From Candidatus Nomurabacteria bacterium (GTDB lineage: Bacteria > Patescibacteriota > Minisyncoccia > Phycocordibacterales > UBA9973), in NCBI GenBank assembly GCA_026396065.1, contig JAPLXO010000010.1, positions 57,073 to 112,109 of the forward strand: DNA of 55,037 nt, given 5' to 3'. Each line of letters starts with the position of its first letter. The stretch's first letter is position 1. Under the pieces are notes generated by a model that saw nothing but the letters and a program-made list of their open reading frames with translations, did no database searches and was not told where the DNA came from. The position numbers and the translations under genes were made by a program. Shown here one piece after another: positions 318 through 16,619 of the stretch.

Positions 318-1892
318 ATGTCACAAAAATTCTTTTTGTATGCTCGCAAGAGTACTGATGTCGAGGATAAGCAGGTTTTGAGTATTGAGGCACAATTAAC
401 GGAATTGCGCGCGTTTGCCCGTGAACAAAGTTTAGAAATAGTTGAGGAGTTAGTGGAGAAACAATCCGCCAAAATTCCAGGTCGTCCGATATTCAACAGT
501 ATGATGAAAAAAATTGAGCGTGGAGAAACTCAAGGAATTTTGGCTTGGCATCCCGACAGATTGGCGCGCAATTCTGTGGACGGCGGACAGATAGTGTATT
601 TTATCGACATCGGACATCTTGCGATGTTAAAATTTCCTACCTTTTGGTTTGAGAATACATCACAAGGGAAATTTTCACTTTCTATGGCATTTGTTCAAAG
701 CAAATACTATGTAGATTCTCTTTCCGAAAATACGAAACGCGGACTTCGCCAAAAAGTACGCATGGGAATATTTCCAAGCCAAGCGCCACTCGGATATATG
801 AATGACAGTCGTACTAAAACGATAATCGTAGACAAGAAAAAATCGAAAATTGTGCGCTTGGCTTTTGAAAAATACACGAAAGGAAATATGCGACTGGAAG
901 ATATTGCAAACTTTTTGGCGAAGTCCGGCGTTACTACAAGAACCGGAAAGAAAATCTCCAAAACAAAAGCATCTTTTATCCTCTCAAATCCTTTTTACAT
1001 CGGTTTGTTTAAATATGGTGGTGAAATCCACGAAGGTAAACACGAGCCAATCATAGTAAAGAAACTTTTTGATTCGGTGCAGTCAATGTTGAAATTTAGA
1101 GGACAACCCGATAGAAAACCAAAAAATGAACCCCAACCATATTGTGGATTACTTCACTGCGCCGAATGCGGAATGATGATAACTGCTGAAATCCAAAAAG
1201 GTCATACTTATTATCGTTGTTCCAAAAAATCTAAAACCATAAAATGTACACAAGGATATATCCGAAGCGAGATTTTGGATCAGCAGATATCATCCGAAAT
1301 CAAAAAAGTTTCTTTGCCCAAAGACTGGGCGAAAGAATTGTTGAAAATGGCGGAAAAAGATTTCAACAATTCTGCCAAGTCTAATTCTGTTTTTGTAGAA
1401 GAAGTGAAAAAAGATATTTTGAAAATCAATATTAAGTTGGAGCGACTTCTTAATGGATATTTAGACCAAGTGATTGAACAAGAAATATATCGTGTACAAA
1501 AAGCAAAGTTGTTATCCGAGAAGAAGTCGCTCGAGGGCAAAATATCTTCCGTTCTACAAAAACAGAATGATTGGCTCGAACCGATGAAAGAATGGATAAA
1601 AGACGCACAAACACTAGACGGAATCGCACGGGATACTGACCTTTTTAAGAAAAAGGTCTGCGCCAAAGAAATCTTTGGCTCGAACCTCCTCCTTGGCGAA
1701 AAAACAGTGCGCGCAAGCGCGCCCGCATTTCTGAATTCCCCCGCAAAATCAGGGCAAACAGAATGGGCGTGCCTTCGGCACGCCCATTCCTTGGTTTCGA
1801 AGAAACCGCTAAGTTCTATTATGGGGATTCGAACCCCAGTGCAAAAGGTGTTTGCAAAGAAATCTACATGCGTAGTTTACTTTTTTGTTTAA
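318..1892 (+). CDS. Large serine recombinase (resolvase N-terminal domain, recombinase domain, zinc ribbon)
   Basis: N-term YARKSTDVEDKQVLSIEAQ, HPDRLARN, GGQIVYFID; recombinase part APLGYMND, NPFYIGLFKYGGEIHEGKHEPII; zinc ribbon CAECGMMITAE...YYRCSKK. C-terminal tail reads antisense through the ssrA 3' end. Confidence 0.93.
   Translation: MSQKFFLYARKSTDVEDKQVLSIEAQLTELRAFAREQSLEIVEELVEKQSAKIPGRPIFNSMMKKIERGETQGILAWHPDRLARNSVDGGQIVYFIDIGHLAMLKFPTFWFENTSQGKFSLSMAFVQSKYYVDSLSENTKRGLRQKVRMGIFPSQAPLGYMNDSRTKTIIVDKKKSKIVRLAFEKYTKGNMRLEDIANFLAKSGVTTRTGKKISKTKASFILSNPFYIGLFKYGGEIHEGKHEPIIVKKLFDSVQSMLKFRGQPDRKPKNEPQPYCGLLHCAECGMMITAEIQKGHTYYRCSKKSKTIKCTQGYIRSEILDQQISSEIKKVSLPKDWAKELLKMAEKDFNNSAKSNSVFVEEVKKDILKINIKLERLLNGYLDQVIEQEIYRVQKAKLLSEKKSLEGKISSVLQKQNDWLEPMKEWIKDAQTLDGIARDTDLFKKKVCAKEIFGSNLLLGEKTVRASAPAFLNSPAKSGQTEWACLRHAHSLVSKKPLSSIMGIRTPVQKVFAKKSTCVVYFFV
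1681..1821 (-). repeat. Right arm of the 141-bp inverted repeat, inside the 3' end of the recombinase ORF
   Basis: Identical to the reverse complement of 1-141; contains hairpin AATGGGCGTGCC-ttc-GGCACGCCCATT and GCGCGC palindromes. Confidence 0.97.
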
Positions 1893-2215
1893 ATTAAAAA
1901 ATTCTTAAGTGAACGAAATATTTTTTAATCGATTTCCTTTGTTTTACTTTTACCTCGGATCATTCGTAAGAGCTATTCCGATTTTATTATGCCACTACTT
2001 ATATATCGGAAGTCTATAAGAGTGACACCAGACCGGCTCAGTTTATTAAGCGAGTGCTGGAACAAGTGAGAAATCAGCCATACTGAAGTATGGAGAAAGC
2101 TTCTTGCCTAGAGTCAATTTTGCAATTAACATTTGAACGAAGTTTTACGAGATTACGTCCATTCTCGGCATGCATCAATAGCAAATATACCTCTTGTCTA
2201 TGCCTTGCAGTCCCA
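1822..2215 (-). ncRNA. ssrA: tmRNA (ssrA); acceptor 3' strand not recognisable
   Basis: Minus strand contains TGGGACTGCAAGGCATAGACAAGAGG...GATGCATGCCGAG...CTCGTAAAAC, resume-like GCA, tag ORF ending PALA-TAA-TAA, ...CGCATGTAGA...TGGGGTTCGAATCCCCA. Resembles known tmRNA 5' and 3' domains and is directly downstream of smpB. Confidence 0.88.
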
Positions 2216-11837: not shown

Positions 11838-13163
11838 ATGCAGAAAGAAAACAAAAAAGAAAATGAGTTGATGGAAAAAATAGTGAGCCTTTGTAAAAGA
11901 CGCGGTTTTATTTTTCAAGGTTCAGAAATTTATGGTGGAATGGCCGGTTTTTATGATTATGGTCCACTCGGTACACTTCTTAAAAGAAATATTGAGAAAT
12001 CGTGGATAAAGCAGTTTGTCGAGTTTAAAGAAAATGTATATTTGATTGATACGCCGATACTCATGCATCCTCGTGTATGGGAAGCATCAGGGCATACGGC
12101 AGAATTCGCGGATCCTCTTGTGGAGTGTAAAAAGTGTAAAAACAAGTTTCGCGCTGATCAGTTAGATAGTGACAAATGCCCAAATGATGGAGAAACACTT
12201 GGTGCTATTTCAAAATTCAATCTAATGCTTGAAACAAAAGTAGGAGCGTCAGAAGATACATCAATAAAAACATATCTTCGACCAGAAGAAGCACAAAATA
12301 TTTTTATTGATTTCAAAAATATTGTAGATTCTTTTTCACCGAAACTTCCTTTTGGCGTGGCTCAAATCGGTAAAGCATTTCGAAACGAAATTACCCCGCG
12401 AGATTTTATTTATCGTTTGCGTGAATTTCAAATAATGGAAATGGAATATTTTATTCACCCAGACATCGCATGGGAACCGATTTTCGATTCATTTTTGGCA
12501 GAACAAAAAGATTGGCTTGGCAGTATTGGAGTGGATATAGAAAAATTGCATCCAATGGAACATCCAGAATCTGGACGGGCGCATTATAGTAAAAAGACAG
12601 TTGATCTCGAATTCGAATACCCATTTGGGATAAAAGAACTCACTGGCCTCGCACATCGTGGAGATTTTGATTTAAAAAAACACGAAGAATTTTCTGGAGA
12701 AAAAATGGGAATTATGGATGAGGAGAAAGGAGAAAGAGTTGTTCCTCACGTGATTGAACCGACAATCAGTGTTGATCGAGCAATTTTAGCGCTTATGGTT
12801 TCTGCTTATCGTGAAGAAATAATAGGAGAAGATACTCGTGTATATCTCAAATTTCCACCACACATCGCACCATATAAAGCGTGTGTTTCTCCGTTATTAA
12901 AAAATAAACCAGAATTACAAACAAAAGCGCGTGAAGTTTTTTCTATTCTCAAAAAAGAATTTGGTTGGATTACATATGATGACAACGGCAACATCGGCAA
13001 ACGCTACCGCCGACAAGACGAAATCGGTACACCTTGGTGTATCGTCGTCGATTTCGACACACTCACAGATGATACTGTCACTGTCCGTGATCGTGATACT
13101 GGAACTCAAGAGAGAGTGAAAGTAATTGATTTAGTTTCTTATATAAAAGAGAAGTTGAATTAA
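11838..13163 (+). CDS. glyS: Glycyl-tRNA synthetase (dimeric class II)
   Basis: CKRRGFIFQGSEIYGGMAGFYDYGPLGTLLKRNI, REFQIMEMEYF, LAHRGDFDLKKH, C-terminal anticodon-binding domain. Confidence 0.96.
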   Translation: MQKENKKENELMEKIVSLCKRRGFIFQGSEIYGGMAGFYDYGPLGTLLKRNIEKSWIKQFVEFKENVYLIDTPILMHPRVWEASGHTAEFADPLVECKKCKNKFRADQLDSDKCPNDGETLGAISKFNLMLETKVGASEDTSIKTYLRPEEAQNIFIDFKNIVDSFSPKLPFGVAQIGKAFRNEITPRDFIYRLREFQIMEMEYFIHPDIAWEPIFDSFLAEQKDWLGSIGVDIEKLHPMEHPESGRAHYSKKTVDLEFEYPFGIKELTGLAHRGDFDLKKHEEFSGEKMGIMDEEKGERVVPHVIEPTISVDRAILALMVSAYREEIIGEDTRVYLKFPPHIAPYKACVSPLLKNKPELQTKAREVFSILKKEFGWITYDDNGNIGKRYRRQDEIGTPWCIVVDFDTLTDDTVTVRDRDTGTQERVKVIDLVSYIKEKLN

Positions 13164-13169
13164 AACTGA

Positions 13170-13628
13170 ATGAAAACCCTCACCCTCGCATTATTATTCC
13201 GTGACGAAAAAATTCTTCTCGCGATGAAGAAAAGGAAGTTTGGTGTAGGGAAGTGGAATGGGTATGGAGGAAAACTCGATGAAGGGGAAATGCCGATTGA
13301 TGGACTCGTGCGGGAAATAAAAGAAGAAAGTAATTTAAATATACCGAAAGAACTTTGCAAAGAGTTAGGATATATCGATTTTTATTTTAATGACAAAGAA
13401 GAATGGAATCAAAGAGTGATTATTTATCGTATTGATAATTTTGTTGGTGAGCCAGAAGAAACAGAGGAAATGATGCCGAAGTGGTTTCCAATTTCAGAGA
13501 TTCCTTGGCATGAAATGTGGAAAGGGGACGACCAATGGATTCCATACGTAATTACAAATAAAAAATTCAAAGGAGAAGTTCATTTTTCTGAAGGTGGAGA
13601 GAAATTGGTAAGTTGTGTAGTGAAATAA
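13170..13628 (+). CDS. NUDIX hydrolase (MutT/8-oxo-dGTP diphosphatase-like)
   Basis: Nudix box GGKLDEGEMPIDGLVREIKEESNL. Confidence 0.9.
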   Translation: MKTLTLALLFRDEKILLAMKKRKFGVGKWNGYGGKLDEGEMPIDGLVREIKEESNLNIPKELCKELGYIDFYFNDKEEWNQRVIIYRIDNFVGEPEETEEMMPKWFPISEIPWHEMWKGDDQWIPYVITNKKFKGEVHFSEGGEKLVSCVVK

Positions 13629-13630
13629 AA

Positions 13631-13660
13631 AAATCAGACTATTTTTCAATAGCCTGATTA
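13631..13660. terminator. Bidirectional terminator-like hairpin between NUDIX and RT genes
   Basis: AATCAG-a-CTATT-tttc-AATAG-c-CTGATT between convergent genes, covering the RT stop codon. Confidence 0.65.
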
Positions 13661-15057
13661 TAGAATTTAATGAGTGCATCTGGATTTATTTTTTCATATT
13701 TTTCCAATGCTTTTTTGAGTTGTGAAGGAATATTCGCATATGTTTTATACACAAGTAAAATATAACCTATGTATCCTTTTGCTTTTCCTTGGATACTACT
13801 ATCTTGTAGTGATACATCTTGTTGTGCGTCAATGCAAGCATGATGCAAAGCAGAACGAATTTTCCTCTGTAATTTTTTAGGAATTGTTGGTCTAAAATAA
13901 TACCAGGGCGTCCATGCTTTTAAGCAATGTCTCGCTCCAGCTATTTTGTCATCCACCATTTCTTTTAGTTCTGCTCGAGTTTTTCTGTGCCTCACTAAAC
14001 GTAACCCCGTAACAAGTGGTACTTCAACTCCTACTTCGTAGATATGAATTTTCTTTTTATTGAATTTCCATATAGTAGTTTTTTCTATCGTAGCGATCAC
14101 TTTACGCAATTCTTTAGAAAGCTTAACCTTGGAGAGATAAGAGTCAGTGCTAATAGTTATGTTATCAACATATACTGAAATACATTGATGTGTGTCTGGG
14201 TAAGATTTTGGAGTTCTATATCTTAAAAAAGATTTGAAACTCGAAATCATTTTTGTGTGTGACAATACAAGTGCCATCGCAATTGGTGATGTGGGGGACC
14301 CCTGCACTAATTTGTTTTGATATGTAAGTACTTTGGACAAAATTTCAGCCATGTCATTACACAATTCGTACATTTCCTCTAGTCCGTTTGGTTTACGTAT
14401 TTGAGCACGTAATGCCTTGTTTGCCTTGTTTGTGAACAATAAACGCCTTTTTTTGAATCGCAGATCTAGATAAGTTAAATCGTACCGATTCTTACTTTCC
14501 CAGGCTTCAAAAATTGAATCGTTAGAGGTAATTTCACTTACTTTTTTGTCGACAAGTCCGTTGATTACTTCCTCGTCAACGGTGTCGTGTTTCTTTTTTA
14601 AGAACTCCCTGTGGTTTTTACTTCTCAGAAACTTTTTATATCTGAATTTGTAAAAACATAGTTCATCATATAGTAAATCTACTAGAGCATTTTTTAGTGA
14701 GAGCGAATCTACACAATGAAACGCATCTTTTAAGTCAACATCTATGATGAAGTTTGGAGTAGTGAAGACATGCGATTCTATACCTCCTAGTGTCGAGCGT
14801 TTCGGTACACCACCATAACAGTAATCGGCTATCATTGGACCTGTTGAGATCTTTGATAGGAAATTTTTGTAAATACTTTGTTGAACTAATTTTGTTGTTT
14901 CTTTTGGTGCGTGAATAGTTCTTTTCCCGCCTGAACGTTTTGGTATCGTAAAAATTCGATATTTTTGATTCGAATATACTTCTTCCAAATGTTCGACTTT
15001 TGTGTTTGTAGCATCTGCAAGTATGCGAAATGCTTCCATAGATAGCTGTTTTTCCAT
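13639..15057 (-). CDS. Reverse transcriptase, retron/UG-like (RNA-directed DNA polymerase)
   Basis: FTIPKRSGGKRTIHAPKETTKLVQQSIYKNFL (RT1), YCYGGVPKRSTLGGIESHV, VDLKDAF (motif A), QGSPTSPIAMAL (motif B-like), YVDN (motif C), VTGLRLVRHRK (VTG motif), SIQGKAKGYIGYI (thumb). Confidence 0.92.
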   Translation of the reverse strand: MEKQLSMEAFRILADATNTKVEHLEEVYSNQKYRIFTIPKRSGGKRTIHAPKETTKLVQQSIYKNFLSKISTGPMIADYCYGGVPKRSTLGGIESHVFTTPNFIIDVDLKDAFHCVDSLSLKNALVDLLYDELCFYKFRYKKFLRSKNHREFLKKKHDTVDEEVINGLVDKKVSEITSNDSIFEAWESKNRYDLTYLDLRFKKRRLLFTNKANKALRAQIRKPNGLEEMYELCNDMAEILSKVLTYQNKLVQGSPTSPIAMALVLSHTKMISSFKSFLRYRTPKSYPDTHQCISVYVDNITISTDSYLSKVKLSKELRKVIATIEKTTIWKFNKKKIHIYEVGVEVPLVTGLRLVRHRKTRAELKEMVDDKIAGARHCLKAWTPWYYFRPTIPKKLQRKIRSALHHACIDAQQDVSLQDSSIQGKAKGYIGYILLVYKTYANIPSQLKKALEKYEKINPDALIKFYNQAIEK

Positions 15058-15107
15058 TTATTTGGGTTTTACATATTTGTTTATTTATTTTTCAAAGAAA
15101 ACCGGTC

Positions 15108-15132
15108 GCCGCAGATGTAGAACACCTGCGGC
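15108..15132 (-). other. Stem-loop upstream of the RT gene
   Basis: GCCGCAGaTGT-aga-ACAcCTGCGGC (11-bp stem with one mismatch); a second hairpin ATGCAC-gta-GTGCAT lies at 15145-15159. Confidence 0.7.
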
Positions 15133-15350
15133 TCAATTCATTCTATGCACGTAGTGCATGCCTTGGTTAATATGGCATCATACCACAACCATCTGACGTT
15201 CAAATCCATAGCTAGAAACTAACTACTTGAAATAAAGAACTATTCAATGAAATGTTCATTAATAGAAACCGGGTTGTTTTTACAATAAACTTTTTTATAT
15301 TATTTGTCAATATTATATAATAAAGAAAATTTTATGATAGAATAGTCAGC

Positions 15351-16619
15351 ATGAAAGCTAAAAAAACAATTTTAAAAAATGGTTTGCGAGTGATAACTAT
15401 ACCAATGAAAGAAAGCCCGACGGTAACAGCTTTGGTATTAGTGGAAACAGGTAGTAAATATGAAACAAAAGAGATAAATGGTTTATCTCACTTTTTGGAG
15501 CATATGTGCTTCAAAGGGACAGTGAAGCGTCCTACTGCTCGTGATATTACTACAGAGCTCGATACCATGGGCGCACAATACAACGCTTTTACTGGTCAAG
15601 AATACACAGGCTACTATGCGAAAAGTGATGCGAAACATTTCAAAAAGATTTTTGATGTAGTGAGCGATGTGTATTTAAATTCCACTTTTCCAGAAACTGA
15701 AATGGAAAAAGAAAAAGGTGTGATTATAGAAGAAATAAATATGTATGAAGACTTACCAATGCGTCATGTGCAAGATATGATAATGGAAGTTTTGTATGGT
15801 GACCAGCCAGCCGGATGGAATATAGCAGGTCCAATAGAAAATATTAAAAAAATGAAACGCGATGATTTTGTAAAATACAAAAAAGAACAATATGTGCCGA
15901 AAGCTACGACTGTCGTCATTGCAGGTGGGGTTAGTGAGAAAGATATGATGACTGAAGTTAAAAAATATTTTAACCATTTAAAAAATGATAAAAAATCTGG
16001 AAAAATAAAAACTATCGAGAAACAAACTACACCAAATGCAAAAATAAAATTTAAACAAACAGACCAAACACATTTTGTTTTAGGTTTTCGTTCGCTCAAT
16101 GCTTTTGATAAAAAAAATGCAGTGAATTCCATGATGGCTGGGGTCCTCGGGGCAGGGATGAGCTCAAGACTTTTCCATAAACTTCGTGAAGAAATGGGTG
16201 TGTGTTATTACGTGCGTGCGAATACTGACCTGTACACTGACCATGGAGTTTTTCAAATTTCTTCTGGCGTAGACAATAAAAGAGTAAAAGAAGTTATCAC
16301 TGCAATTCTTAAAGAATGTGAAAAATTAAAAAATGAACTTGTCGGAGATAAAGAATTAGCGAAAGTAAAAGAGATTTTTATTTCTGGAATGAAAATGGGG
16401 TTGGAAGCGACAGATGATGTAGCAAATTTCTACGGGGGACAAGAAGTAATGGTAAAAAAGATTGAAAGTCCTGAAGACAAAGCAAAGAAAATAAAAGCTG
16501 TAACATCCAAGCAAATCCAAGCAATGGCAAAACAAATATTCCAAAACAATAAGCTAAACCTTGCACTAATTGGTCCGTTTAATGATCAAAAAGAATTTTT
16601 GCCGATTTTAAAGATCTAG
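15351..16619 (+). CDS. M16-family zinc metallopeptidase (processing-peptidase-like)
   Basis: Inverted zinc motif HFLEHMCFKGT, ARDITTELDTMGAQYNAFTGQEYTGYYAK, IIEEINMYEDLP. Confidence 0.94.
   Translation: MKAKKTILKNGLRVITIPMKESPTVTALVLVETGSKYETKEINGLSHFLEHMCFKGTVKRPTARDITTELDTMGAQYNAFTGQEYTGYYAKSDAKHFKKIFDVVSDVYLNSTFPETEMEKEKGVIIEEINMYEDLPMRHVQDMIMEVLYGDQPAGWNIAGPIENIKKMKRDDFVKYKKEQYVPKATTVVIAGGVSEKDMMTEVKKYFNHLKNDKKSGKIKTIEKQTTPNAKIKFKQTDQTHFVLGFRSLNAFDKKNAVNSMMAGVLGAGMSSRLFHKLREEMGVCYYVRANTDLYTDHGVFQISSGVDNKRVKEVITAILKECEKLKNELVGDKELAKVKEIFISGMKMGLEATDDVANFYGGQEVMVKKIESPEDKAKKIKAVTSKQIQAMAKQIFQNNKLNLALIGPFNDQKEFLPILKI

Follow-up and report, generated by a model that had tools for sequence, protein, structure and literature searches.

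Genomic context of the reverse transcriptase gene

We analysed a DNA stretch of 55,037 nucleotides (hereafter the window), whose minus strand carries an intact open reading frame of 472 amino acids encoding a reverse transcriptase (RT). As the initial annotation had described, the RT gene is convergent with a NUDIX hydrolase gene (13170-13628) and divergent from an M16 peptidase gene (15351-16619). With glyS (11838-13163) on the other side, the M16 gene delimits a slot (13164-15350) of variable content within the genus. In four relatives glyS and the M16 gene are directly adjacent; in another (L255) the slot contains a NUDIX gene, a toxin-antitoxin-like pair and a second NUDIX gene, and in the closest relative (L252) a kinase, a Cas2-like protein and an unknown protein. 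Since the slot is empty or differently filled among relatives, the retron described below is a cassette in a variable slot. No part of 15058-15347, between the RT and M16 genes, was conserved in the relatives sharing the glyS/M16 slot.

Two side observations were made. No CRISPR genes were seen next to the Cas2-like protein of L252 (2020-2397). In the window, the gene of a large serine recombinase (318-1892, plus strand) overlaps a tmRNA gene (1821-2198, minus strand), as would be expected of an element inserted into the tmRNA gene (318-2198).

Table 1 Features of the retron locus in the window.
Feature	Position	Strand	Basis
Sigma70-like promoter, TTGACA-17-TATTGT (10/12), predicted start near 15275	15282-15310	-	Consensus match only; region not richer in matches than shuffles
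Predicted non-coding RNA, about 171 nt	15102-15272	-	Folding
msr-type hairpin A	15240-15265	-	Fold; position 5' of hairpin B and relatives
msr-type hairpin B, GUUAG-UUU-CUAGC, conserved hairpin of the family	15205-15229	-	Hairpin model from other genomes
Candidate msd, three more hairpins	15108-15204	-	Fold; order a1-A-B-msd-a2
Retron-lineage RT, 472 aa	13639-15057	-	Family models, profile, fold, tree
GIESH, aa 92-96, at the NAXXH position of canonical retron RTs	14770-14784	-	Alignment
Motif A, VDLKDAF, aa 107-113	14719-14739	-	ORF translation and family alignment
A-to-B insertion, about aa 118-244, predicted helix set	14326-14706	-	Alignment and AlphaFold model
Motif B, QGSPTSP, aa 252-258	14284-14304	-	ORF translation and family alignment
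Motif C, YVDN, aa 296-299, replacing YxDD	14161-14172	-	ORF translation and family alignment
VTG triplet, aa 349-351, start of region Y	14005-14013	-	ORF translation and alignment
Second insertion, following VTG (near aa 354-390)	13888-13998	-	Alignment
Terminator-like hairpin (predicted), overlapping the end of the RT gene	13632-13659	-	Prediction

A reverse transcriptase of the retron lineage

The protein matched RVT_1 above the family cut-off (Pfam, 6.1e-10), and its translation contains, as initially claimed, the VDLKDAF, QGSPTSP, VTG and YVDN motifs, with 138 aa separating the first two. It was the sole match within its own 0.8-Mb genome, and a search of 56 congeneric genomes did not find the gene. 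Scanning genome and viral collections with the single protein retrieved no relatives, nor did tblastn against phages and plasmids; relatives were recovered by whole-genome searches only. A Shine-Dalgarno-like site was sought before the start codon and not found.

First described as retron/UG-like, the window RT is of the retron lineage according to family models, a profile search of solved structures, fold search and phylogeny. Its best PADLOC models were those of retrons (RT_III-A, 2.7e-26; RT_VI, 3.9e-25; RT_II-A, 4.3e-24), yet the match is broken in two by an insertion and no accessory gene was recognised near the RT. Among solved structures, a profile of 22 relatives matched best Ec86 (4.5e-53), Ec67 (6e-48) and Kva2 (1.1e-44), then Ec83 and Ec78, against 2.5e-20 for the best group II RT and about 1e-7 for UG/DRT RTs. 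The AlphaFold model (pLDDT 81.5, pTM 0.79, with pLDDT >90 over most of the RT core) had retron RTs as all 11 of its best PDB matches. The UG-like part of the description did not hold: profile and fold matches to UG/DRT structures were weaker, and no UG/DRT model occurred among the 25 best PADLOC hits. DRT2 and DRT9 resemble the window system in combining an RT and a structured RNA with no additional protein, but DRT9- and DRT2-type chains scored only 1.3e-7 to 8.1e-7 with the same profile. A group II maturase was rejected (TIGR04416, 39.9 bits vs. a cut-off of 300); the maturase (X) domain is absent, in line with the initial annotation, and the Rfam scan revealed no intron families. We also rejected a diversity-generating retroelement, having found no template/variable repeat pair near the RT. 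The phylogeny also placed the window RT in the retron lineage. It belongs to no characterised retron or UG type: it reached none of the curated NCBIfam retron cut-offs, with 81.8 bits for the St85/Ec86 model (NF038233) against a curated cut-off of 235.

Ec86 (Eco1; type II-A/St85), the best solved-structure match, shares with the window system the RT fold and motifs, including VTG/region Y, and a same-strand upstream RNA with paired msr hairpins. However, it has YADD, a D-to-Q spacing of 42 residues in the family alignment, long a1/a2 repeats and an adjacent effector, whereas the window locus combines YVDN and GIESH (not NAXXH) with a spacing of 144, a 6-bp closing helix and no effector beside it; nor do the two RTs group in the tree. 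The catalytic tetrad of retron RTs is given as YADD (YxDD) (PMC6868368) and is absent here. At the NAXXH motif of region X, GIESH retains the His alone; the Asn also deviates in two validated retron RTs (PMC6868368). Because both of these hallmarks fail, 'retron' refers here to lineage and RNA plan as read from sequence, and not to a proven msDNA producer. In motif A, DxxxA[FY] is the mark of the clade of the window RT, canonical retrons having DxxDFF. The motif A Asp (D108) and the first motif C Asp (D298) are invariant across the clade alignment.

The large insertion reported in the initial annotation lies between motifs A and B, at the position of the telomerase IFD and the group II RT3a. 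Long A-to-B spacing (81-144) characterises a subclade of eight rows (L010, the window RT, L171, L172, L057, L002, L167 and L168; support 87/87), and the C-terminal part of the insertion can be aligned with L171 and L172 (RRLLFTNKANKALRAQIRK vs. RPLFPNKRVQWFRKLLRD), but some 55 residues (around aa 150-205) occur in the window copy only. The insertion is modelled as helices, with low confidence mid-way (pLDDT 53-75, aa 131-210). A weak Mago_nashi (Pfam) match within it (0.0043, short of the cut-off) was rejected. The second insertion, absent from the initial annotation, is shared with L171 and L172 only, at the same position and with partly similar sequence; its pLDDT is low at aa 363-385.

A predicted retron-type RNA upstream of the gene

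The initial annotation had presented the RT as stand-alone. Although it has no partner gene, the RT is not alone, as a structured retron-type RNA and a promoter-like site, both absent from that annotation, lie directly upstream. The 180 nt from 15098 to 15277 fold at -60.6 kcal/mol (z -5.53, 0/200 shuffles), and the predicted RNA consists of a closing helix (CCGGUU/GACCGG) that encloses five triloop hairpins. The promoter-like site ends 10 nt ahead of this helix. The RNA had no match in Rfam.

The structured region 5' of the RTs of the clade contains a hairpin of the form GNCAG-N3/4-CUGNC, corresponding to hairpin B. From 16 loci of other genomes, with the window excluded, we built a covariance model of this hairpin (R1), in which 93.8% of the cells are paired and 27 two-sided changes occur (covariation 0.66 vs. 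0.25 shuffled, 0/500). Its best match in the entire window was hairpin B of Table 1 (17.4 bits, the next match having 12.2; E 0.067 over the whole window). A GC-rich hairpin at 15108-15132 was rejected as the conserved msr hairpin, with 9.4 bits for the same model.

The a1/a2 repeats were scored with a strict helix scorer and shuffles; RNA duplex prediction, in which gaps are allowed, was dropped as uninformative. In the window locus, no long a1/a2 exceeded the shuffles. Since, in addition, the closing helix is short, the msd limits in Table 1 are those that we infer from the fold and the order of elements. Several relatives display the full plan of a1, hairpin A, hairpin B, msd and a2: L174 (16 bp, YVDD), L181 (18 bp, YVDN), L085 (15 bp, YADN), L057 (11 bp, YGDN), L168 (about 17 pairs, YVDG) and L083 (YADD), the a1/a2 being clear by the strict scorer in the first five. 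The canonical YADD retrons L180, L182 and L184, from the same phylum, also have an upstream RNA with an msr hairpin, but differ in their DxxDFF motif A, YADD, A-to-B spacing of 44, clear a1/a2 and position in a separate clade.

A YADN retron occurs at the equivalent position, before an FtsZ-like gene, in two genomes representing two genera of one family (G113 and G171). Their RTs share 54% protein identity and both retain YADN; the a1/a2 arms (TGCCGCCAGTCA/TGATTGGCGGCA) are kept between them, and the flanks diverge. Synonymous sites were saturated in the dN/dS analysis, which gave no value. Vertical inheritance of this retron in two genera, together with conservation of its RNA, would hardly be expected of dead genes.

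Repeated replacement of the second aspartate of motif C

Whole-genome searches of the host's small-genome phylum (probably Patescibacteria), covering genomes of 0.4-2.0 Mb, yielded 47 distinct RT ORFs. The naming of the phylum follows from these genome sizes, taken with the presence of bacterial genes and a tmRNA. The residue following the invariant motif C Asp was D in 32 of them, N in 12, G in two and A in one. Thus, the second Asp is missing from 15/47 phylum RTs vs. 0/80 named-genome relatives, a contrast that is descriptive only because the two samples were gathered differently. Among viral-contig RTs, 1/32 had N at this place. A viral contig (IMGVR_UViG_3300034152_001291) encodes an RT (L044, 2956-4095) with YCDN together with the canonical DIKDFF; it falls outside the clade, and its Asn therefore arose independently.

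We built the phylogeny with IQ-TREE on an alignment from which the column of the second motif C Asp had been removed. The non-canonical RTs of the phylum formed a set of 32 rows, all of them from the sampled phylum (support 95/93), leaving out the canonical L180, L182 and L184, and the window RT fell within a set of 18 rows (95/81). On the tree, the residue in place of the second Asp switched at least six times, YADD members of the same architecture being interleaved with the variants. The branch of the window RT itself is long (1.54); nearest to this RT are L171 and L172, both YADD, through a weak join (86/61). Given these YADD neighbours, its Asn probably arose separately from that of L002, which also has YVDN, as does L181. 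The homologues do not all have YxDD with this copy as the exception: YxDN, YxDG and YxDA recur in the phylum, though YADD is found in both L171 and L172.

Reverse transcriptases are regarded as having the second Asp of YxDD almost without exception. A lineage that has repeatedly exchanged this metal-binding residue for Asn, Gly or Ala is apparently undescribed: in the open-access literature searched, which included few subscription papers or preprints, we found nothing on retrons of Patescibacteria or on YxDN retron RTs. The initial annotation had put the system forward as a candidate for an undescribed one, and the support for this is its absence from this literature and from the model libraries.

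Proposed mode of action and alternative explanations

The locus is, with fair probability, a stand-alone retron that is complete in itself and belongs to a lineage known only from a small-genome phylum (probably Patescibacteria). Comprising promoter, msr-msd-like RNA, RT and terminator, this retron is probably active. The promoter would drive a single transcript comprising the msr-msd-like RNA and the RT message; the RT would then bind msr hairpin B through VTG/region Y and copy the msd part, from 15204 to 15108, yielding a small DNA linked to RNA. For catalysis, the enzyme would rely on Asp108 and Asp298, with Asn299 replacing the second motif C Asp, at a position where the lineage appears to tolerate D, N, G or A. 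The helical insertion between motifs A and B probably provides extra RNA contacts. The resulting RT-RNA-DNA particle may act alone or together with a host protein encoded elsewhere; its likeliest role would be defence against phages or other mobile elements. On a broader and more tentative reading, which we hold to be possible rather than likely, a retron lineage restricted to this phylum would have altered metal-site chemistry (D/N/G/A) and form effector-less RT-RNA particles, possibly with a product or fidelity unlike that of known retrons.

The main rival explanation is that of a dead or crippled retron RT which has lost DNA synthesis, has kept RNA binding and has been co-opted for binding RNA or for a structural role. 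The frequent loss of the second motif C Asp in the phylum and the lack of a nearby effector would fit, and the corresponding change severely weakens the HIV-1 RT. However, several observations make this explanation rather unlikely. Both D108 and D298 are invariant, and in the tree the variants are mixed with YADD members of the same architecture. The RNAs behind variant RTs are complete down to a1/a2 and the msd loops, for which a dead enzyme would have no use. In addition, Asn is standard at this place of motif C in the active polymerases of Mononegavirales (GDN; PMC4634563); these are unrelated RNA-dependent RNA polymerases and the analogy would indicate only that Asn chemistry is possible.

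Alternatively, the window RT might be one component of a three-part retron, with an effector encoded at another place in the genome or supplied by the NUDIX hydrolase next to it. To our knowledge, every well-studied retron defence system has an effector, and the NUDIX protein matches a PADLOC candidate defence family (PDC-S07, 1.1e-11). Nevertheless, this gene is poorly supported as a partner, as it is convergent with the RT gene and has an orthologue of 64% identity in G384, at the same place but with no RT there. As noted initially, no effector gene was recognised adjoining the RT. Moreover, the 24 clade loci revealed no recurrent neighbour family beyond a single pair related by vertical descent and occasional housekeeping genes, so that no linked effector is evident and a three-part system appears improbable. 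Last, a newly acquired, decaying copy with YVDN and a ragged insertion as early pseudogene changes would agree with the sole copy in the genus, the long branch, the YADD sisters L171 and L172, the short a1/a2 and the lack of a Shine-Dalgarno-like site, but is very improbable given 472 open codons with the other invariant residues retained, YVDN also in L002 and L181, a confidently modelled RT core, a significant RNA fold and the promoter- and terminator-like sites.

The locus also suggests that retrons without an effector occur in ultra-small bacteria, about whose defences little is known. The changes at the second Asp in a lineage that has kept its retron RNAs make the requirement for this residue directly testable, and these natural RTs with unusual active sites are on offer for retron biotechnology.

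The phylum also contains a further group of RTs (L061, L067, L071, L186 and L189) with GxP[AS][SA]P in motif B and Y[LIV]DD in motif C, unlike those of retrons.
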